Positions 5,624 through 43,900 of a stretch of 64,000 nt of DNA are shown here, one piece after another; position 1 is the stretch's first letter; the number at the start of each line of letters is the position of its first letter. The stretch is from Sinohyriopsis cumingii (Eukaryota > Mollusca > Bivalvia > Unionida > Unionidae). A program made the position numbers and the translations under genes. Under the pieces are notes generated by a model. That model made no database searches. It was not told the DNA's origin and was given only the letters and a program-made list of their open reading frames with translations. The DNA is taken from contig CM068824.1 of assembly GCA_028554795.2 (NCBI GenBank), positions 159,279,789 to 159,343,788 on the forward strand, in the 5' to 3' direction.

Positions 5624-5873
5624 ATGGTTGTTATTGTTCTAGATTTAAAGCCAATATTTTTACAGTACACACACATGAAAGCCAGCTTAACTGGTGGAAG
5701 AAGAACCCATGAAATCCCCTGAAAGAACCCACTACACACGCAAAGCTAATGATAAGCTTTCTCAGATATCCACAGTGGCCAAGCTCTAGACTCAAACCCA
5801 CATGTACAGAGGTGAGATGACAAAGATCATTCAAGTTGAATGCTTTATACCACTCAGCCACCCAGGGCCCCCT
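5624..5873 (-). mobile_element. SINE family A, full-length but diverged copy 1
   Basis: On the minus strand this has a tRNA-like head (GGCCC...GGTGGCTGAGTGGTATAAAG, B-box-like GGGTTTGAGTC), the conserved body and a tail equivalent to the TTAAACCCC(AAC)n end of the clean copies. It has many substitutions relative to the copies at 20815 and 38771, so it is the oldest copy here. Confidence 0.85.
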
Positions 5874-6082: not shown

Positions 6083-9000
6083 CTGAAAGAAGATGTCAAT
6101 TTATTACAATATTTTGCCACTGACATTAACGTTGTATTTAATGTATGAAATATAAATTAAATTCAATTAAACTGAATAACTTTAAATGTTACAGCAGTCT
6201 ACTAACAGTTACAAATATATACAAATGTATGTATCAAAATTTAACAGCACATCAGTATGATAATGGCTATAACATGCCAATTAAGTAAAGTTGCAAAAAT
6301 ATAAATATAAAAGGAGCTGCATCTAAAAAAGATTCCATATATATGAAAAGATAAAATACTACAATGTAAAGGAATAATGTAAAAATAAAACTTCATGAAA
6401 ATAAAGTTTTCCAAACAAGCATAAGCATGAGTTACTATAAGATAAAATATATAGTGATTTTGAAATTCTATAAAATTCATATAAAGCAAAATGATAAAGG
6501 TAAATATAGGGTTCACATTTTTTATATAAACTTAATTCCCTCAAAAGTCTAAGATTTTTTAAGGTAGAAGATTATCATAAAGTTCCTTAATTGAGCTCAC
6601 ATCCAAAACCTTTTATCTCACATGGTGGAAGTCAATACATTGTACAAAAACATGTTCCACCGCCAGTGGACACTGGCAGAGTATGCACTCAGGCAGATGT
6701 TCACCTTCAGGAGTTGTGCATAAATCAAGAATTTGTGTCCTATTTGTGATCAACACAATATCACCGTATCTCTGTCATTTGCTCTATATGCAGGATGCCA
6801 CACTACAATGATGGATTTGATGTTCTGAAACTTGTTTGTGAAGTTTTCATTCCATATATATTGCCAAGCATAGAAAATGCTAATTTAAAAATATCTGAAA
6901 TTAGTATATGGAATCTTCCATTCCAAACTGTTGGCTTCATGGCAGCTTTGGCTGCTTGACATGTCCTTTTATTACCCTTAATATCAACTGTACCAAATAC
7001 TTTTTCCAGCTTGTGAGTAAATTATATTTCTGTAAGAACTGGGATGTTAATCGGTGGTCAGACATAAGGTTTTGCAAGATATTCTGCATGGAAAGGGAAT
7101 CTTCTAAAAAGATGACGAAACTGGTTTTTTTGGGGTCTCAGTGTAGTTAAAAGATTTTAGTTCTTGTTGTTGTCGGGTTTAACACCATTTTTCAGCACAA
7201 GATAGGCTAATAATGGTGGCCAGTATAATTGGTGGAGGAAGAACCCAGGAAAAACCTGGAAAGAACAACCGACCTACGAAAAGATTTTAGTATGGATGTA
7301 ATTTCTGCATAAAAAGGAGGCTTTATCCTGTAACTGGCTTGAGATATTGCCAAACATCAAATACCATTTTGGTGGGCATTGATAACCATGGTAGTGATTT
7401 GGAAATATAGAACGGTGGAGTAGTTGCAACAAGTACTTTTGCTGCTTCTTGATGAGGACAAACTTGTATGCTGCAAGGTGAAATAAAAAACTGTCAGAGT
7501 ATACATTATATGCAGGACTAAATGGCAGGATTATAAGATAGTTTGAAGAGCCTTTTCATTTGTCTGTGTTAAAGTATTTGTTTGGACTTCAGAAGGTGAA
7601 GTTCTACATGGTCCTAGACAAAGTCCAATTCCCTGACTGTTTATAGGATCAAGCAAATGATCTTGGTCAAGTTTAGATCCCACTAAAGACCTGCATAACC
7701 AGACTAAGACTTGATCTATACATAATGGCATGGGAAAGTTTAGATCCCACTAAAGACCTGCATAACCAGACCAGACTTGATCTATACATAATGGCATGGG
7801 AAAGTTTAGATCCCACTAAAGGTCTGCATAACCAGACCAGACTTGATCTTATACAAAATGGCATGGGAAAGTTTAGATCCCACTAAAGACCTGCATAATG
7901 ATACAAGACTTGATCTATACATAATGGTATGGGAAGGTTTAGATCCCACTAAAGGCCTGTATAACATTACCATGACTTTACCTGTACATAATGTCATGGG
8001 GATGTTTAGATCCTAAAACAGACCTGTATAACTAGACCAAGCCTTGACCTGTTCATAATGCCATTGAAAGGTTCAGATCCTACTAAAGGCCTGAATACCA
8101 GACCAAGACTTGGTTTGTACATAATGCAATGGGAAGGTTTCCATCCTACTAAAGGCCTGTATAACTAGACCATGACTTGATCTGTACATAATGCCATGGG
8201 GAAAGTTTAGATCCTACTAAAGACCTGTATAACCAGACCAAGACATTCTGGTCTGCTCCACAATCTGTGCTTGCCACAAAACATATTAAATCAGTTGCTT
8301 TTGAAATTTCCCACTGAAGCATCTAATATGTGGAATAAAAGCCAGTTTACAGTCAAATATAAAAATTGTGTCCCCTGCACAACAGTAAAATAAGACTTTA
8401 TCTGTACATAATGCCATGGGGAAAGTTTAGATCCTACTAAAGACCTGTATAACTAGACCAAGACTTGTTTTGTATATAATGCCATTGGAAGGTTTATATC
8501 CTACTAAAGGCCTGAATACCAGACCAAGACTTGTTTTGTACATAATGCCATGGGAAAGTTTAAATCCCACTAAAGGCCTGTATAACTAGACCATGACTTG
8601 ATCTGTACATAATGCCATTGGGGAAAGTTTAGATCCTACTAAAGACCCGTATAACCAGACCAAGAAATTTTCGTCTGGTCCAAAATCTGTGTTTGCCACA
8701 ATACATGTTAAATCAGCGGCTTTCGAAATTTCCCACTGAAGCATCTAATATGTGGAATGAAAGCCAGTTTACAGTCAAATATAAAAAATGTGTCCCCTGC
8801 ACAACAGGAATAAGACAAATGTCAATATAGAGCTTTGGGACATCATTGATTCAATGCAATCAGCAGAAAAATAATACAGATTTAGATTAATATTATTTAC
8901 AAATTTTCTTCTGCCTATTTCTGAAATTTATTTAGGCTTTTCTTTATTCAATATACAACAGCATGCATACTCTCTGATCTACATCCGATCAAACTGTCAA

Positions 9001-12000
9001 CATAGGATGAGTAGTCTGTTCCTGGATCAAGGCATTTCAATGTGTCATAAATTTTAATGTTTAAACGGTTGACTGAAAACAATCTGAGGTGCACTGACAT
9101 CCTGAGGATAGCTTTCTGAATCAGTGCTACTCACCATAACTCTGAAATTTCTATCTTTCACCAAATTAGGTATAAAAATAGGCAGGCAGCCCAAAAGACT
9201 AGGTTGAATAGGTCATTCAAAATGCCATACTTGTACATGTGTTATAAGTTTTCTCCAAGTCTGAAAAGATGGTAGCTATATGTTCGCTTTTTATGAAAGC
9301 TTTTCAGATAAATGCTTCAAGTCTGATTAGATTATCAAATGTGCTTTTCTGGTGTCTGAATCCACATTGATGGTCTGCTAGTAGTCTGCTGAACTCAAGG
9401 TACCGGAAGAGTTTGTTGTTTATTGTCCATTTAATGGTTTTGCAAATACAGCTTTCAAGTGACATAGTATGATAGTTTGAAGTGTTGGTATTGTCCTTTA
9501 GCTACTGGTACCACTGCTTCTTCTTGCTATTATGGTGGGAAGTTGCATGTTTCCTAAATTTTATTAAAAATGATTATTAGCGTATTGAGACCTGTATCAG
9601 ATGAGTGTTTCAGCAGTTGAAAGTTTAATCATCTGGTCCTGCTAAATGTCATGGGCCTTAATCAATTATGTATGTCACATGTCTTAATCAATTATGTATG
9701 TCACAGGCCTTAATCAATTATGTATGTCATGGACCTTAATCAATTATGTATGTCATGGGCCTTAATCAATTAAGTATGTCACAGGCCTTAATCAATTATG
9801 CATGTCACGGACCTTAATCAATTAAGTATGTCACAGACATTTATCAATTATGTATGTCATTTTCCTTAATCAATTAAGTATGTCACAGGCCTTAATCAAT
9901 TAAGTATGTTGCATGCCTTAATCAATTATGTATGTCACGGGCTTTGATCAATTAAGTATGTCACAGGTCTTAATCAATTAAGTATATCACAGGCCTTAAT
10001 CAATTAAGTATGTTGCATACCTTAATCAATTAAGTATGTCAGGGGTCTTAATCAATCAAGCATGTCACAGGCCTTAGTTAAGTATGTCACAGGCCTTAAT
10101 CACTTAAGTATGTCATGGGCCTTAATTAAGACAGTCTGGTAGTTTTTAAAGTATGAAAAGTTTATTGTAATCTTTGGAATAAGCAAAAATTAAATTTAAA
10201 TGAATCCATTCCTTCTGTAAATTTTCTGAATCATTTTTTGTGAAGAGTTTTTCAAGAATGTTTCAGCCAATGTATTTTAGATTTCTGTTAAGGCTATCAC
10301 AGTTGAGGAATAAATTCAAGGTATCCAGGCTCTTCTTTCTTGTGAAGTATGCAAATTTCAAACTTACAGAATGTAAAACATTTCATTTCAGCATCAAGTA
10401 CATCTTGATCTGAATTCTGCTTATTTGTCAAAAAAATATAGTGTAACTGATCCTCAATATATGAGTGCATGTGATTTAGATTTTCAATTTAGCTTTAGCA
10501 GTTTTAGTCATGTCCGCATCATGTCAGTTTATAGTGATATCTAGCACTGGGGTATCATGCTCATGGACATGTAGCATCATGTCCCACCAAGTCACATTAA
10601 CCTGACTCCAGCTCAATCAATTCTAACACTAACCTCTAAATGCTGGGAGGCATGCAATGCAGCTTAAAGTACCATTTTTACAAGTCTCTGGTATGTCTCA
10701 GTCACTCAGCCAGAGTTCAAACCCATGACCTCCTGCATGCATTGCAGAAGCCCTAACCATTTAGGTCAAAGGAGTGGTCAATTCCGAATATATAGTGTAA
10801 CCAATCCTCAATATTTAGTGTAAATGATACTCAATATGGCATAGCTGATCCTCAAAATAGTGTTACTGATCCTCAATATATACTGTAATTGATCCTCAAT
10901 ATATAGTTTAACTGATCCTCAATACACTGTAGCCAATCATCAAAATAGCATAACTGATCCTCAATATAGTATAGCTGATCCTCAAAATAGCATAACTGAT
11001 GCTCAAAATAGCATAACTGATCCTCAATATAGCATAGCTGATCCTCAATATAGTATAGCTGATCCTCAATATAGTATAGATGATCCTCAATATAGTATAG
11101 CTTATCCTAAATATTAAGCAACTGACCCTCATTATAACATCATATATCCTTTCACAAATATTTTTAAAAAATGTTGTTGAAAATGAAATTCTGAAAATCT
11201 TGTCTTAGCTTAAATTTGTGATCTGTAGTAATTATTTGTTCTCCTGCTTTCATAATATTCTGTTCACTCACCCGTATCTTTTTTGAAGAGTTCTGCATAA
11301 CCAAGGCCTTGACCCGACTGACCTCAGCGTCAGGGTCACCCATAGAGGCAGATGGTTCACCGTCCACCATGGCATTGATCTGTTTCATTAGGGCGGCCTT
11401 GGCATTCACCAGGTTCAAAAGCTCAACACTCAGATCCTCATTTCTCTTGGTCTAAAGGAAACACAAGACAGTTTGCATATTTTGTAAATGAAATAATCTA
11501 ACCATAACATGCTCCCATCCTCAATTTACTTTGTAGTCTTTATTTATTGTACAGTCAAGTAGATGAAGTTGGTTTGTACATGAAGCAAGTTAAAAAAAAT
11601 GAAGTTATTAAACTATTGCCCAATTTAGGATCTTCAAACTTTCGTGGGCTCAGAACACATCAAATCTTGACCAAGCTTGCTAAATTGTAAAATCTTGACA
11701 CAGCTTGCTAAATTGTAAAATCTTGACACAGATTGCTAAATTGTAAAATCTTGATAGCTTGCTAAATCATAAAATCTTGACACAGCTTGCTAAATTGTAA
11801 AATCTTGACACAGCTTGCTAAACTTTAAAATCTTGACACAGCTTGCTAAATTGTAAAATCTTGACACAGATTGCTAAATTGTAAAATCTTGACACAGCTT
11901 GCTAAAGTTTAAAATCTTGACACAGCTTGCTAAATTGTAAAATCTTGACACAGATTGCTAAATTGTAAAATCTTGACACAGATTGCTAAATTGTAAAATC

Positions 12001-30000: not shown

Positions 30001-33000
30001 CACTGGACAGGATTAAGTAGTGTTAGATGCATAAATGATGACGCAGAATACTCGTTTAAGCTCTTCACTTGAGAAATATGAATGATTTTGCAAGCATGAC
30101 CGTCCCAGGAAGCAGCTAAAAATCAATGTTTTTCAAAAAAAACACAAAAAAACAATAAAATATTCTGATTCAAAGAAGAGAAATTTCTAACAGTATGACA
30201 TTTATACAGACCTCACTTAATGACCATGGGATGAACACATGCATACATACTGAACTGCAAATGTACTTCACCTTAACTTACATATATTTTTAATTCTTTT
30301 TCTGCACTGAATTCAAATACACAATGATTTATGATAAAGTGAGTAAACATAATATGTCTATCAAATTACTATGGAATCGCTCTTACAGATGTAATAAGAT
30401 TGGTCAATGAATACACATGTTGATACTCTAATTATTATGGATTCACTCTTACAGATGTAATAAGATTGGTCAATGAATACACATGTTGATACTCTAAATA
30501 TCATGGATTCACTCTTACAGATGTAATAAGATTGGTCAATGAATACACATGTTGATACTCTAAATATCATGGATTCACTCTTACTGATGTAATAAGATTG
30601 GTCAATGAATACACATGTTGATACTCTAAATATCATGGATTCACTCTTACTGATGTAATAAGATTGGTCAATGAATACACATGTTGATACTCTAAATATC
30701 ATGGATTCACTCTTACAGATGTAATAAGATTGGTCAATGAATACACATGTTGATACTCTAAATATCATGGATTCACTCTTACAGATGTAATAAGATTGGT
30801 CAATGAATACACATGTTGATACTCTAAATATCATGGATTCACTCTTACTGATGTAATAAGATTGGTCAATGAATACACATGTTGATACTCTAAATATCAT
30901 GGATTCACTCTTACAGATGTAATAAGATTGGTCAATGAATACACATTTTGATACTCTAATTATTATGGATTCACTCTTAAGGATGCAATAAGATTGGTCA
31001 ATGAATACACATGTTGATACTCTAATTATAATGGATTCACTCTTACGGATGTAATAAGATTGGTCAATAAATACACATGTTGATACTCTAATTATAATGG
31101 ATTCACTCTTACAGATGTAATAAGATTGGTCAATGAATACACATGTTGATACTCTAATTATTATGGATTCACTCTTACAGATGTAATAAGATTGGTCAAT
31201 GAATACACATGTTGATACTCTAAATATCATGGATTCACTCTTACAGATGTAATAAGATTGGTCAATGAATACACATGTTGATACTCTAAATATCATGGAT
31301 TCACTCTTACAGATGTAATAAGATTGGTCAATGAATACACATGTTGATACTCTAAATATCATGGATTCACTCTTACAGATGTAATAAGATTGGTCAATGA
31401 ATACACATGTTGACACTCTAAATATCATGGATTCACTCTTACTGATGTAATAAGATTGGTCAATGAATACACATGTTGATACTCTAAATATCATGGATTC
31501 ACTCTTACAGATGTAATAAGATTGGTCAATGAATACACATTTTGATACTCTAATTATTATGGATTCACTCTTAAGGATGCAATAAGATTGGTCAATGAAT
31601 ACACATGTTGATACTCTAATTATAATGGATTCACTCTTACGGATGTAATAAGATTGGTCAATAAATACACATGTTGATACTCTAATTATAATGGATTCAC
31701 TCTTACAGATGTAATAAGATTGGTCAATGAATACACATGTTGATACTCTAATTATTATGGATTCACTCTTACAGATGTAATAAGATTGGTCAATGAATAC
31801 ACATGTTGATACTCAAATTATTAGTCAATCACTCTTACAGATGTAATAAGATTGGTCAATGAATATACATATTGATACTCTAATTATTATGGATTCACTC
31901 TTACAGATGTAATAAGATTGGTCAATGAATACACATGTTGAAACTCTAATTATTATGGATTCACTCTTACAGATGTAATAAGATTGGTCAATGAATACAC
32001 ATGTTGATACTCTAATGTTCATGGATTCACTCTTACAGATGTAATAAGATTGGTCAATGAATACACATGTTGATACTCTAATTATTATGGATTCACTCTT
32101 ACTGATGTAATAAGATTGGTCAATGAATACACATGTTGAAACTCTAATTATTATGGATTCACTCTTACAGATGTAATAAGATTGGTCAATGAATACACAT
32201 GTTGATACTCTAATTATTATGGATTCACTCTTACAGATGTAATAAGATTGGTCAATGAATACACATGTTGATACTCTAATTATTATGGATTCACTCTTAC
32301 TGATGTAATAAGATTGGTCAACGAATACACATGTTGATACTCTAATTATTATGGATTCACTCTTACTGATGTAATAAGATTGGTCAATGAATACACATGC
32401 TGATACTCTATTATGCATTCACTCATACAGATGTAATAAGATTGGTCAATGAATACACATGTTGATACTCTATTATGGATTCACTCTTATGGATGTAATA
32501 AGATTGGTCAATGGATATACATGTTGATACTCTAATGTTCATGGATTCACTCTTACAGATGTAATAAGATTGGTCAATGAATACACATGTTGATACTCTA
32601 AATATCATGGATTCACTCTTACAGATGTAATAAGATTGGTCAATGAATACACATGCTGATACTCTAATGTTCATGGATTCACTGTTACAGTTGCAATGAG
32701 AATGGTCAATGAATATACATGTTGATACTCTAATGTTCATGGATTCACTCTTACAGATGTAATAAGATTGGTCAATGAATACACATGCTGATACTCTAAT
32801 GTTCATGGATTCACTGTTACAGTTGCAATGAGATTGGTCAATGAATATACATGTTGATACTCTAATGTTCATGGATTCACTCTTACAGATGTAATAAGAT
32901 TGGTCAATGAATACACATGTTGATACTCTAATTATCATGGATTCACTTTTAAGGATGAAATGAGATTGGTCAACGAATACACATGTTGATACTCTAATTA

Positions 33001-36000
33001 TTATGGATTCACTCTTACAGATGTGATAAGATTGGTCAATGAATACACATGTTGATACTCTATTATGGATTCACTCTTACAGATGTAATAAGATTGGTCA
33101 ATGAATACACATGTTGAAACTCTAATTATTATGGATTCACTCTTACAGATGTAATAAGATTGGTCAATGAATACACATGTTGATACTCTAATGTTCATGG
33201 ATTCACTCTTACAGATGTAATAAGATTGGTCAATGAATACACATGTTGATACTCTAATTATTATGGATTCACTCTTACAGATGTAATAAGATTGGTCAAT
33301 GAATACACATGTTGATACTCTAATGTTCATGGATTCACTCTTACAGATGTAATAAGATTGGTCAATGAATACACATGTTGATACTCTAATTATTATGGAT
33401 TCACTTTTACTAATGTAATAAGATTGGTCAATGAATACACATGTTGAAACTCTAATTATTATGGATTCACTCTTACAGATGTAATAAGATTGGTCAATGA
33501 ATACACATGTTGATACTCTAATTATTATGGATTCACTCTTACAGATGTAATAAGATTGGTCAATGAATACACATGTTGATACTCTAATTATTATGGATTC
33601 ACTCTTACTGATGTAATAAGATTGGTCAACGAATACACATGTTGATACTCTAATTATTATGGATTCACTCTTACTGATGTAATAAGATTGGTCAATGAAT
33701 ACACATGTTGATACTCTATTATGCATTCACTCATACAGATGTAATAAGATTGGTCAATGAATACACATGTTGATACTCTATTATGGATTCACTCTTATGG
33801 ATGTAATAAGATTGGTCAATGAATATACATGTTGATACTCTAATGTTCATGGATTCACTCTTACAGATGTAATAAGATTGGTCAATGAATACACATGTTG
33901 ATACTCTAAATATCATGGATTCACTCTTACAGATGTAATAAGATTGCTCAATGAATACACATGTTGATACTCTAATTATTATGGATTCACTCTTACAGAT
34001 GTAATAAAATTGGTCAATAAATATACATATTGATACTCTATTATGGATTCACTCTTATGGATGTAATAAGATTGGTCAATGAATACACATGTTGATACTC
34101 TATTATGGATTCACTCTTATGGATGTAATAAGATTGGTCAATGAATACACATGTTGATACTCTCATTATTATGGATTCACTCTTACAGATGCAATGAGAC
34201 TGGTCAATGAATACACATGCTGATACTCTAATTATTATGGATTCACTCTTACAGATGCAATGAGATTGGTCAATGAATACACATGTTGATACTCTAATTA
34301 TCATGGATTATGGATTGGTTGATGAATGCATGTGCCAATACTTTATCCACACCAATATCAGAACTGAACATATATATGTACTAATGCATGGTTCTCTGAA
34401 TAAAGTAACTTATTATATATGTAATATCTATGTTTTAGGTACATCTGTATTTCTCATTTAATATGCACTGATTCAAGAGTATCAATGTGCCCATGAAGCA
34501 TGAATTTTTGCTCCCATATCTATTATCTCCCCTCCCATTTTTAGCATGCATCATTTTCTTGGCTAACTAACTTGGTTGCTTATAGAACAATATATTACAA
34601 AGCATGGTAATGGTCGGTGGATCCCAATAAATTGTGCTACAGCAGGGTTTCAGTGAACTTGCATTGTTATATTAAGCAACCTGTAATTAAGACAATATTG
34701 TTATAACAGTATGTCACCATATCTATCTATTGATATCAATATATTACAATTGGTAACTCATCTTGTTGATGTAAGAGACACTGCTTTGATCGGGTACACT
34801 ATAGAAATGTCACATCATCATGAATGGCAGCTTAAATGGGCAAATAATTAAGGGCAAACTGTTACACTGCCAGACCTGCCAACCCTGACGAGTCCATCTC
34901 AGTAATGCAGTTGCTTTTTTTCTGTAAGATTTACCAGTTTTCAGTACGGTGTAACCAAAAATCAATAACTGCTACTGTAAAGCTGGAAAATGTAAATAAA
35001 AGTTTGAAGCATTGACAATAAACACTATGTTCAACTGAAAGGTTTTTAAAGTAAGCGTAGACTTTATTTACCACTAGTACAGTTACACAAACTCTTGTTC
35101 CAAACCCTATGCAGCTCAGTGGCTTGTTGCTATCTCTCAACTTAACATAATTCTTGGAAATTCTTTTCAATTTAAAATGACAACGGCAATCATATTTCCC
35201 ACCATGAGACATACTCAAGTTGACGCATGATGTCCTATAAACTGTTTCATTTCCAGCTTTTATTCACAAGAATCTGAATACTCCTTTTTATTCTTTTGTG
35301 TTGATTATTAACACTTTTCTAGAAGCTTATTTTCCCTTTCGTCTTAAACATGCATTGCTTTCTGGATGCCATTTTTAAAAATTCTATAATCAACAGTTTG
35401 ATCATGCAGATGCTTTGCATGAACAAATAGGTGCAGTTTGAAGCATCTGAAGTACTGCCGTGAATTTAGTCTGGTTCCCTGACTAATTTTACTAATTCTA
35501 AGATGAAACCCGAATCCAAATAAAACATGGATGAACCAATTATCCGATCTTTTCGGCAACGATCATTTTCCCATAGTTTTTGCGATTTTAAGAGTGATTT
35601 TCACAAGACAATGGCAGAATCATAAGAGTTGGCAGGTCTGCACTGCAGGCATATATCATTCGTAGATTCTTTCAACTCTGGATATAATTACCAATATGAC
35701 TCAGCTTACACTAAGTATTATTAAAAAATTTATTAGGTATGAGTAAATGTAATTTAAATAATCTATATGTCCTATTTTGGTGAAACAAATCATATCTAAT
35801 ACCACTCAGTATTTAAGATAATTAAAACAATCATATTATTGCCACGTCTTTAGACAATTAAACATATCTTATATTGCCCTGCATTTAGATCATTAAACAA
35901 ATATTATTTATTACTGACCTCTATTTAGATAATTACACATATGATATATAATATGGTCCTATAGTTATCAAAAAATCTTAATATTTCCCTAAATCTAGAT

Positions 36001-39000: not shown

Positions 39001-40948
39001 TCGGCCACTCAGGGCCCCAATTTTAGATTGTAATTTAAATGCCTTTCTTTGATGGCCATAATTGGTATTATTGGAGTGTGAATTGATTTATTTCATGACA
39101 AAGACTTTAAACTTCTAAACATTTCATGAAATTTCATTATTCCCAAGAAAATGTCTAAAAAAATAAAATGGTATGTTTGTATATTTATATTTCTCACACT
39201 CAAATGCACACTGCATTTTACTGACATAGGCCTATTCAAAACAAACCCTCCAGTATATGTCTTTACAAGTGCAAAACTAGTACTTAACCCCAACAGGGTT
39301 CACACAGAATTCTGAATGATAAATTCAAAGACTTTTCCCAAACTTTCAAACACCACAAACATAGATTTCCAAGAACTATTTTTGCTAACAATTTGTATAC
39401 AAGTTATGTTATATGAGAAAACGATGAATGCAAAATACTACAATTTCATTTAATGATGAAATTCAAACTATAATTAATCAAAAAGAAAGAAACCAGGAAA
39501 ACTCAACTACATCCAAATCTAACAACCTTGGACAATATTATTTGTGATTATGTTAAGATATTAAAATGTTTGGGTTTATTTCAATTTTCAAAGACTTTTA
39601 AAGACCTCAGGGTAATCTGCTTGATTTTCCCAAACTTTCTAGGCTTTGAAAATGCCACCTCATTTTTCCCAAACTGTCCAAGACCATAAGAACCCAGCCC
39701 AATGCAATCTGCTCCCCATTTAGTGTATTAGCAGATATCCCTGTGCAATTTACTCCCCATTTAGTGTATTAGCAGATATCCCTGTGCAATTTACTCCCCA
39801 TTTAGTGTATTAGCAGATATCCCTGTGCAATTTACTGCCCATTTAGTGTATTAGCAGATATCCCTGTGTAATGTACTCCCCATTTAGTGTATTAGCAGAT
39901 ATCCTTGTGTAATGTACTCTCCATTTAGTGTATTAGCAGATATCCCTGTGCAATTTACTCCCCATTTAGTGTATTAGCAGACATCCCTGTGCAATTTACT
40001 CCCCATTTAGTGTATTAGCAGATATCCCTGTGCAATGTACTCCCCATTTAGTGTATTAGCAGATATCCCTGTGCAATTTACTCCCCATTTAGTGTATGAG
40101 CAATATCCCTGTGCAATTTACTCCCATTTAGTGTATTAGCAGATATCCCTATGTAATGTACTCCTCATTTAGTGTATTAGCAGATATCCCTGTGCAATTT
40201 ACTCCCATTTAATGTATTAGCAGATATCCCTGTGTAATGTACTCCCCATTTAGTGTATTAGCAGATATCCCTTTGCAATTTACTCCCATTTAGTGCATTA
40301 GCAGATATCCCTGTGCAATTTACTATCCATTTAGTGTATTTGCAGATATCCCTGTGCAATTTACTCTCCAGTTAGTGTATTAGCAGATATCCCTGTGTAA
40401 TGTACTCCCCATTTAGTGTATTAGCAATATCCCTGTGCAATTTACTCCCCATTTAGTGTATTAACAGATATCCCTGTGTAATGTGCTCCCCATTTAGTGT
40501 ATTAGCAAATATCCCTATGCAATTTACTCCCCATTTAGTGTATTAGCAATATCCCTGTGCAATTTACTCCCCGTTTAGTGTATTAGCAGATATCCCTATG
40601 TAATGTACTCCCCATTTAGTGTATTAGCAGATATCCCTGTGTAATGTACTCCCCATTTAGTGTATTAGCAGATATCCCTGTGTATTGTACTCCCCATTTA
40701 GTGTATTAGCAGATATCCCTGTGCAATTTACTCCCCATTTAGTGTATTAGCAGATATCCCTGTGCAATTTACTCCCATTTAGTGTATTAGCAGATATCCC
40801 TGTGTAATGTACTCCCCATTTAGTGTATTAGCAGATATCCCTTTGCAATTTACTCCCATTTAGTGTATTAGCAGATATTCCTGTGCAATTTACTCCCCAT
40901 TTAGTGCATTAGCAGATATCCATGTGCAATTTACTCCCCATTTAGTGT

Positions 40949-40996
<48 letters not shown>

Positions 40997-43900
40997 GACT
41001 TTGTATAGCGCCTAATCTTTAGAAGCTCTAAGCGCTTTACAACATTAGACAACACCTATAAGATAAAAAACATAATAATATTCTTACAAAAACAAACAAG
41101 ATGAAATTAGAAAAACATTAAAAAATAAAAAACATGCTGAGAATATTTCAGGTAGGAAACATTATTAGGTCTTTAAGTTTGTTCTTGCAGTCGAAATAAG
41201 TGAGTTTTGAGAGCCCTCTTGAAAGTGATCACTGTGTTCTTGTGTCTAAGTTCAGTGGGCAATTCATTCCACGTTGCTGGGCCCTGGTATGCAAAAGAAC
41301 GCTGTCCACATGACTTTGTTTTCATAGTGAGAATAATGAGTACACGATTGTCAGAAGAGGAGCGTAAGTATCTTGGTGGCGTGTACACATGGGTGAGATC
41401 GGATAGGTATGTTCGACTAGAGTCCGACAGTGAAATGTAGCACAGAGAACTAATTTTGTGTTTGATTCTGGATTGAATGGATAGCCATTGTAGGGTACAG
41501 AGCAGCAGGGAGGTGTGCTCTGATCGTGGTACTCTAAGCATGATCCGAGCAGCTGTTTTGAACTTTTTGAAATTTCTGGAGTAGATATTGAGATGAACCA
41601 GACAGAACTGAGTTACAATAGTCCAGTCTTGAAAGTACTAATGAACACACAAGTGTTTTAGTGGCATCAACTGAAAGATATTTGCGAATTGAGCTGATGC
41701 GTCTCAGCTCAACATATGCAGACTTGCATATGTTCATGACATGTTGGTGCAATGTGAGAGTACTGTCCAGAGTAACACCTAGGTTTCGTACTGATTGTGT
41801 GAATTTAATGTTGGCGTTGCTGATATTTATTGTTTGAGGTAAAGGATGTGAATGATAAAGTCTTTGTGTTGTTATCAGAATGGCCTCAGTTTTATCATCA
41901 TTCATCTGCAGCTTGTTACAAGTCATCCATGATTTCACATCAGAAATGCACCTCTCTACACCTTGGATGGTTGCATCAACTGCAGTTGGGTGGCTAGATT
42001 TGTATATTTGGGTGTCATCAGCGTACAATTGGTGAGACACTGGATGATGATCTGTGACACTTGAGAGAGACTGAGTGTACAGAATGAAGAGAACAGGTCC
42101 GAGAACAGGTCCAAGAACAGACCCCTGTGGAACACCACAACATAGATCAACTGGGCTGGAGTGTATTCCATTTGCAGATACAATTTGTGTCCTGTTGACC
42201 AAGTAGGACTTGAACCACAGTAAGGCTGTATCATGAATGCCAAATACATGCTGGAGATGGTGAAGTAATATATCATGGTCTATTGTGTCAAATGCTGCAG
42301 ACAGATCAAGGAGGGTGAGGACTGTAATCTTTCCGCTATCCAACGCAGAGAGAATGTCATTAACTACTTTTAGAAGAGTAGTTTCAGTACTGTGGCAAGG
42401 GCGATATGCAGATTGTACATTCCTAAAAAGACTGTTTGAAATTTAGATGAGATACAAGCTGGGATAGAACAACCTTTTCTAAGATTTTTTAAATGAATGG
42501 GAGATTAGAAACTGGGCGGTAGTTCTTTAAATCATTATGGTCTAGTGTTGGTTTCTTCAGCAGAGGCTTTACAATGGCAGTTTTGAAAAATGATGGGAAT
42601 TCCCCAGATGAAAGAGAGGTATTAATAACATCAGTTAGTGAAGGCAATACTGGATCTGAGTACTCAAGCAGCAGTGATGTTGGAATTGGATCAAGTTCAC
42701 ATGACTTTGGTACACTCTTCATCACGATTGTACGTACCAAATCCAGAGACAGGTTCAAATGCTGCTAATGGTTGCCGCTCAAATTCTGTATCCCAACTGT
42801 ATGGTGACGACGAGTCAATTGAAACTGTAGTGTCAAGCTTGTCTCTAATGGTTTGTACTTTGTCACGGAAGAAATTTGCAAACATGTCCGGAAGGTCAAC
42901 TGGAGAGAAGGTAGTTGGAAGTGGTGTTGATTTGTTCCTTGACATTAGCTTGTTAGTAATCTCAAAGAGTTCTTTGCAATTGGAACTTTCCATGATCTTA
43001 GTAGTGTAGTAGGCTGATTTCGCTGCAGATTAGCAGGTATCCCTGTGCAATTTATTCCCCATTTAGTGTATTAGCAGATATCCCTGTAAAAGTTCCTCCC
43101 CATTTAGTGTATTAGCAGATATCCCTGTCCAATTTACTCCCCATTTAGTGTATTAGCAGATATCCCTGTGCAATTTAGTCCCCATTTAGTGTATTAGCAG
43201 ATATCCATGTACAATGTACTCCCCATTTAGTGTATTAGCAGATATCCCTGTGCAATTTACTCCCCATTTAGTGTATTAGCAGATATCCCTGTGCAATTTA
43301 CTCCCTATTTAGTGTATTAGCTGATATCCCTGTGCAATTTACTCCCCACCTAATGTATTAGCAGATATCCCTGTGCAATTTACTCCCATTTAGTGTATTA
43401 GCTGATATCCCTGTGCAATTTAATCCTTGTTTAGTGTATTAGCTGATATCCCTGTGCAATTTACTTCCCACCTAGTGTATTAGCAGATATCCCTGTGCAA
43501 TTTACTCCCCATTTAGTGCATTAGCAGATATCCCTGTGCAATTTACTCCCCATTTAGTGTATTAGCTGATATCCCTGTGCAATTTATTCCCCACCTAGTG
43601 TATTAGCAGATATCCCTGTGTATTAACTGCTATCCCTGTGCAATTTACTCCCCATTTAGTGTAATAGCAGATATCCCTGTGCAATTTACTACCCATTAAG
43701 TGTATTAGTAGATATCCCTGTGTAATTTACTTCCCACTTAGTGTATTAGCAGATATCCCTGTGTAATGTACACCCCACTTAGTGTATTAGATGATACCCC
43801 TGTGTAATTTACTCCCAATTCAGTGTATGAGCAACCCCAGTCAAACTACTATCCAACTGCACTGTATCAGCAGGTACCTCACAACAATATACTCCCCACT

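Follow-up and report, generated by a model that had tools for sequence, protein, structure and literature searches.

A minisatellite in Sinohyriopsis cumingii composed of an ORF2 segment of a decayed LINE copy

An old, decaying LINE copy in the genome of Sinohyriopsis cumingii has probably given rise to a minisatellite in place, through exchange between short direct repeats, expansion of the unit and a later duplication of 421 bp. The array lies within the 64,000-nucleotide stretch of DNA that was analysed (the window). The succession of events (insertion, decay, array birth and the 421-bp duplication) can be read as a relative order. TE-derived minisatellites are a well-known kind, and the single array in the window is by itself ordinary.

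The array and its host LINE copy

By TRF, the region holds two short-period arrays, one of 67 bp at 7669-8240 (8.6 copies, score 689) and one of 66 bp at 8392-8665 (4.1 copies, score 388), together with a longer period of 421 bp at 7974-8807 (2.0 copies, 91% matches). Thirteen units of 66-67 bp occupy about 7664-8666 on the minus strand; in coding-strand order, block A is followed by units U1-U4, block B, units U5-U13 and the right flank. The features, in window coordinates, are as follows.

6544-9628, minus: decayed LINE copy (ORF2) hosting the array (tblastn of the intact ORF2 L064, residues 210 to 972 collinear)
8714-9628, minus: upstream ORF2 part, reverse-transcriptase region (L064 residues 210-524; RVT_1 is L064 252-502)
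8667-8807, minus: block A, LINE sequence preceding the first unit and copy 1 of the duplicated block (alignment to siblings)
8393-8666, minus: units U1-U4 (TRF and unit alignment)
8245-8392, minus: block B, copy 2 of the upstream block (7.6% from block A)
8248-8255, minus: putative seeding direct repeat, left member, reading CAGACCAG (CAGATCAG in the family consensus)
7664-8244, minus: units U5-U13 (TRF and unit alignment)
7974-8807, minus: 421-bp tandem duplication, two copies of a block plus four units (TRF, 91% matches; unit distances)
7658-7663, minus: AGATCA in the shortened right flank, a possible and uncertain remnant of the right member (by eye against the consensus)
7546-7663, minus: post-array LINE sequence, LDPINSQGIGLCLGPCRTSP (tblastn with L064 and reading frames)
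6544-6988, minus: ORF2 C-terminal part (L064 residues 823-972)

The host copy was delimited with an intact ORF2 of 982 amino acids from the same genome (L064), which maps collinearly from 9628 to 6544 on the minus strand by tblastn. Its residues 210-524 fall at 9628-8714, residues 502-554 are matched twice, and residues 540-604 and 823-972 fall at 7713-7546 and 6988-6544, respectively, with E-values of 8e-7 to 2e-19 except for the 540-604 piece (4e-4). The array sits near L064 residue 550 and is collinear with the host LINE, which continues on both sides, shortened on the right. Pfam found no domain in any of three pieces of the window's own broken frames, and the intact genomic copy was used instead. 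The minus-strand frames do contain the peptides that the initial annotation had reported. Two similar stretches, 5690-5760 and 7220-7290 (tggtgga-agaacccatgaaa and tggtggaggaagaacccagg), were seen by eye and could represent a single dispersed element of short length; the latter of the two sits within the decayed LINE copy.

The LINE had been described as Jockey-type, an assignment that appears doubtful because its ORF2 has RNase H: in the intact L064 ORF2 a LINE-type reverse transcriptase (RVT_1, E 1.1e-36, residues 252-502) is accompanied by RNase_H (E 1.5e-12). Canonical Jockey elements are not known to have RNase H; in the I group (Nimb, Ingi and others) it follows the reverse transcriptase. 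By this domain the LINE is a candidate member of the I group. LINE-1 ORF2p and R2 are among the solved relatives. The I-superfamily clades of molluscs are given as Nimb and Ingi in PMC10294476.

The unit corresponds over its whole length to positions 476-546 of the composite family consensus, less one codon and a base or so at the join, and its peptide LVWLYRSLVGSKL..GIMYRSS parallels the family's LLWLYRSLVRSKLDYGSIVYRSA. Aligned to the family composite, the TRF rows of 66 and 67 bp reach z 15.4 and 16.6, respectively (60 shuffles each), and the overlapping longer-period rows of the window array z 9.9 to 32.2; of 196 control rows, taken from elsewhere in the window and from 20 further 10-kb stretches, none reached z 5 and four reached z 3. 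At the level of sequence comparison, these alignments show that the unit is a contiguous stretch of ORF2 from a single decayed LINE. The claim that the 66-67 bp unit is a LINE segment on the minus strand is thus upheld by both TRF and alignment to the family, and the case named at the outset as fatal to it, a unit that does not align to ORF2, did not arise: alignment is full length, one codon short. The unit is longer than about 10 bp by TRF and single-copy in the TE consensus, as TE-derived minisatellites are defined. It is extremely improbable that a foreign minisatellite was inserted into the LINE. The window is indeed minisatellite-rich (34.9% of bases), but the alignment led us to reject such an insertion, as the unit consists of LINE sequence in its collinear position and the ORF continues on both sides.

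The earlier report of a duplicated segment of about 420 bp, comprising the upstream block and several units, agrees with the 421 bp TRF period and with the distances between units, which confirm the nearest expected partners U2-U6, U3-U7 and U8-U4; U1, U4 and U5 are mutually too similar for sorting to partners. The units nearest the consensus are U5 (10.8%), U4 (13.8%) and U1 (14.1%). Blocks A and B lie 21.2% and 19.0% from the consensus and differ from one another at 7.6% of 132 sites, and hence the block and its four units were duplicated later than the array was born.

Family state and timing of the array

A similarity search with the window segment gave 39 other places (siblings) at 67-80% identity, with 40 of 67 candidates scored. 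In a 341-bp consensus of 38 of them (L056 was left out, and L004, L035, L048, L050, L056 and L059 were left out of its extension), the segment is present once, with one in-frame stop (TGA); this was the check that the initial annotation had set for itself, and the unit stands at the expected position. A query of three tandem consensus units returned 43 rows, five from the window array and 38 single-unit matches elsewhere; among the 40 of 259 candidates scored, no match elsewhere exceeded 92 bp and the only multi-unit alignment was at the window. The L056 array was not returned, so diverged arrays escape this search. A 40-nt unit probe gave one match in 28 of the 39 siblings, four in L056 and none past the cut-off in the other 10. 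At the protein level, the 150 matches scored among 13,406 candidates cover the 132-aa query in full, with no stop within the segment, and lie in open frames of 253 to 1687 aa; they are the best-scoring, young copies rather than a random sample. Many of these listed long-frame copies are clustered at G000:C8 78.0-79.4 Mb and G000:C4 46.4-47.6 Mb.

Since the consensus holds a single unit and the matches elsewhere are single units, local birth of the window array is supported by these comparisons over a family trait. Tandem units carried by the LINE family or a subfamily and brought here by retrotransposition would have a precedent in the human LTR12 and L1PA consensus sequences with internal tandem repeats reported in PMC3389668. 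For the copies scored we reject such an origin as very improbable, against which stand the one-copy consensus, the 38 places aligning a single unit, the 150 uninterrupted protein matches and the lack of a second locus for the array DNA among the 40 scored. The initial claim that source and amplified copies can be read in one place holds in part: the right flank has been shortened, and it is the siblings that show the single-copy state.

Local birth can be placed in time by changes that the units share. Seven consensus columns are derived in at least nine of U1-U12, and the substitutions at 484, 501 and 508 extend to U13 and are common to all 13 units, one gap aside; U13, at the right edge, retains the ancestral base at 521. 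The number of the 39 siblings with the same state is 0 at 484, 8 at 501, 2 at 508, 0 at 521, 3 at 523, 3 at 529 (a deletion) and 2 at 535, and four of the seven derived columns therefore occur in 0-2 siblings. Six substitutions in about 66 sites suggest a drift of roughly 9% in the host copy by the time the founder unit began to multiply, provided that these changes did not reach the other units afterwards.

An array formed at reverse transcription or insertion by template switching, rather than later in the resident copy, seems improbable. The argument in PMC3389668 that tandem repeats are more frequent in TEs that are younger and more active would favour it, but the derived changes are common to all 13 units and mostly rare in siblings, and none of 12 young copies (near-identical, and so not independent tests) carries an array inside ORF2. 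One young copy, L073, has a 139-bp array lying beyond ORF2. Among siblings, array presence showed no link with decay, mean identity being 72.8% with arrays (n=13) and 75.1% without (n=26; p 0.33).

Initiation of the array and a second array from the same segment

We favour an origin in the resident copy. The first duplication would have arisen after insertion, once the copy had drifted roughly 9%, by slippage or unequal exchange at a pair of short direct repeats (CAGATCAG in the consensus) with a spacing of 73 bp. Further events of the same two kinds would have enlarged the array, and the period would have shrunk from 73 to 66-67 bp as one codon and, at the join, about three bases were lost. 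The block and four units were later duplicated (421 bp). The array has no evident function and is presumably an incidental product of replication or repair in neutral sequence.

A second array made from the same segment is found in the sibling L056, at G000:C8, 101938028-101938550 (73-bp period, 7.1 copies). Its units share variants with their own first, flank-side copy, the LINE continues on both sides, and a genome search with this array returned only itself; it is independent of the window array. The L056 unit spans from one CAGATCAG to the other in the consensus and has nine near-tied rotations, as an 8-bp repeat predicts. The window unit is this segment with one codon and, at the join, about three bases missing, and its best-fit ends fall a few bases inside the 8-bp repeat. 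In the young subfamily copy L064, the direct-repeat pair is absent. The L056 element (L056 379-801, L061 1-563) holds two LINE-made arrays, of 73 bp and 45 bp, the latter with 7.2 copies. We considered a proven hotspot at 467-547 and dropped it, since in 7-14% of simulations chance alone makes some pair of the 14 arrays coincide at both ends.

At the joins of 14 arrays, the window array included, the summed direct-repeat length was 28 against 20.3 at random (p 0.039) and 49 against 37.6 (p 0.005), and in the other two settings 52 against 43.1 (p 0.022) and 68 against 58.6 (p 0.014), the four p values being uncorrected. This enrichment is modest, and the start of the array is something that we infer. 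With zero spacing tolerance the window join has a 1 bp repeat and L056 none, the 8-bp repeat counting only with a spacing tolerance of 2; a direct repeat of at least 8 bp appears in 153 of 300 shuffles of the 341-bp consensus and is thus not rare. In L004, a 5-bp repeat, TCTTC, has a spacing of 22 bp, equal to the array period. Judged from sequence, repeat exchange fits L056 well, the window approximately and L004 too.

It is possible, if rather unlikely, that the array was born from the LINE after insertion but was started without a direct repeat, for example by end joining or break repair with templated copying. Several LINE-born arrays have a repeat of only 2-3 bp at their joins, never more than 3 bp, and in PMC3389668 the two named models account for just 6% of the TE-derived arrays of the human genome. 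Against such a start, L056 fits the 8-bp repeat and L004 fits a 5-bp repeat at exactly its period, and we retain repeat exchange as the preferred reading for the window array.

Frequency of LINE-born arrays and comparison with known systems

The window array is not unique: among the siblings, 10 of 39 by a strict test and 13 of 39 by a loose one carry arrays of their own LINE sequence. The strict test requires a collinear array that scores z 5 or higher and selects L004, L043, L045, L048, L049, L050, L051, L056, L057 and L059. The loose additions are L007, a 25-bp array placed inside ORF2 by protein alignment, and L033 (z 3.5) and L035 (z 2.5), which are collinear but low-scoring and rest on position. 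Only 2.1-2.2 copies are present in L033, L043 and L057, and the arrays of L004, L035, L043, L045, L048 and L050 reach the end of the extracted piece. The loose count of 13 refers to 23.5 kb of LINE sequence, with the L007 array just outside that stretch. Two TRF rows in or overlapping LINE stretches did not score as LINE-made (L052, z 1.5; L004 1303-1387, z 2.1). As siblings were chosen by similarity to the window segment, the count falls short for arrays within the matched stretch, and the rates do not hold for the genome as a whole.

Twenty random 10-kb stretches contain 59 arrays of period at least 15, 25 of them with at least 2.9 copies, and old LINE copies hold no fewer arrays per kb than the sampled genome. 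On a simple reading, any sequence that happens to be present can give birth to an array here, and it is in LINE copies that such births can be read. We consider the chances about even that in this genome a decaying LINE copy, once inserted, regularly turns into a minisatellite (between a quarter and a third of those sampled) and that particular short direct repeats are reused as starts in independent copies.

Minisatellites of period at least 10 cover 34.9% of the window (1-64000) and 6.2% of 200 kb in 20 stretches elsewhere (range 0 to 23.3%). The longest array in the window, at 30364-34309, is 3.9 kb of a 66-bp unit (60 copies, 93% matches). A 41-bp array is split into 39703-40952 and 43029-43833, with the same unit in both, by about 2.1 kb that starts with (TAA)14 and contains a diverged reverse-transcriptase match at 41588-42439 on the minus strand. 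The region 39703-43833 looks like a different LINE inserted into a pre-existing minisatellite, the reverse of a LINE-born array.

Minisatellite starts are hard to study because the sequence that preceded the array has as a rule disappeared. A LINE family of thousands of copies provides it, together with exact segment ends and a second array from the same segment. Such a system with known ancestors is useful because the named models explain so few (6%) of the cases in PMC3389668. If births are regular and repeats are reused, the dispersed family would be a natural replicate experiment with the pre-array sequence known for each birth; the slippage model could be tested array by array. With several siblings holding arrays of their own, the element family can serve as a ruler for array starts. 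In the open-access text searched, no match listed described an ORF2 in which a single repeat pair had seeded arrays more than once.

TEs are reported to account for 23% of human minisatellites and satellites (PMC3389668; Ahmed and Liang, 2012). As described there, the human arrays likewise derive from TE pieces, L1 among the sources, with local expansion after or at insertion; the present case differs in its old LINE, its 2.9 Gb genome and its two copies with nearly the same segment ends. The TE-born satellites and minisatellites listed in PMC6947457 (Alu, B1, MaLR, ogre, CR1 and LINE-1) represent the same conversion from dispersed to tandem; here the LINE is a different one, presumably of the I group. 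The model of minisatellite origin from short direct repeats (Haber and Louis, 1998), as described in PMC6947457 and PMC3389668, places short repeats on either side of the future unit, a feature that our arrays may share when a direct repeat of at least 5 bp at the segment's ends is asked for. What differs from its description there is that the pre-array sequence is known here from siblings, and that the repeat fits L056 exactly but the window only after small losses.
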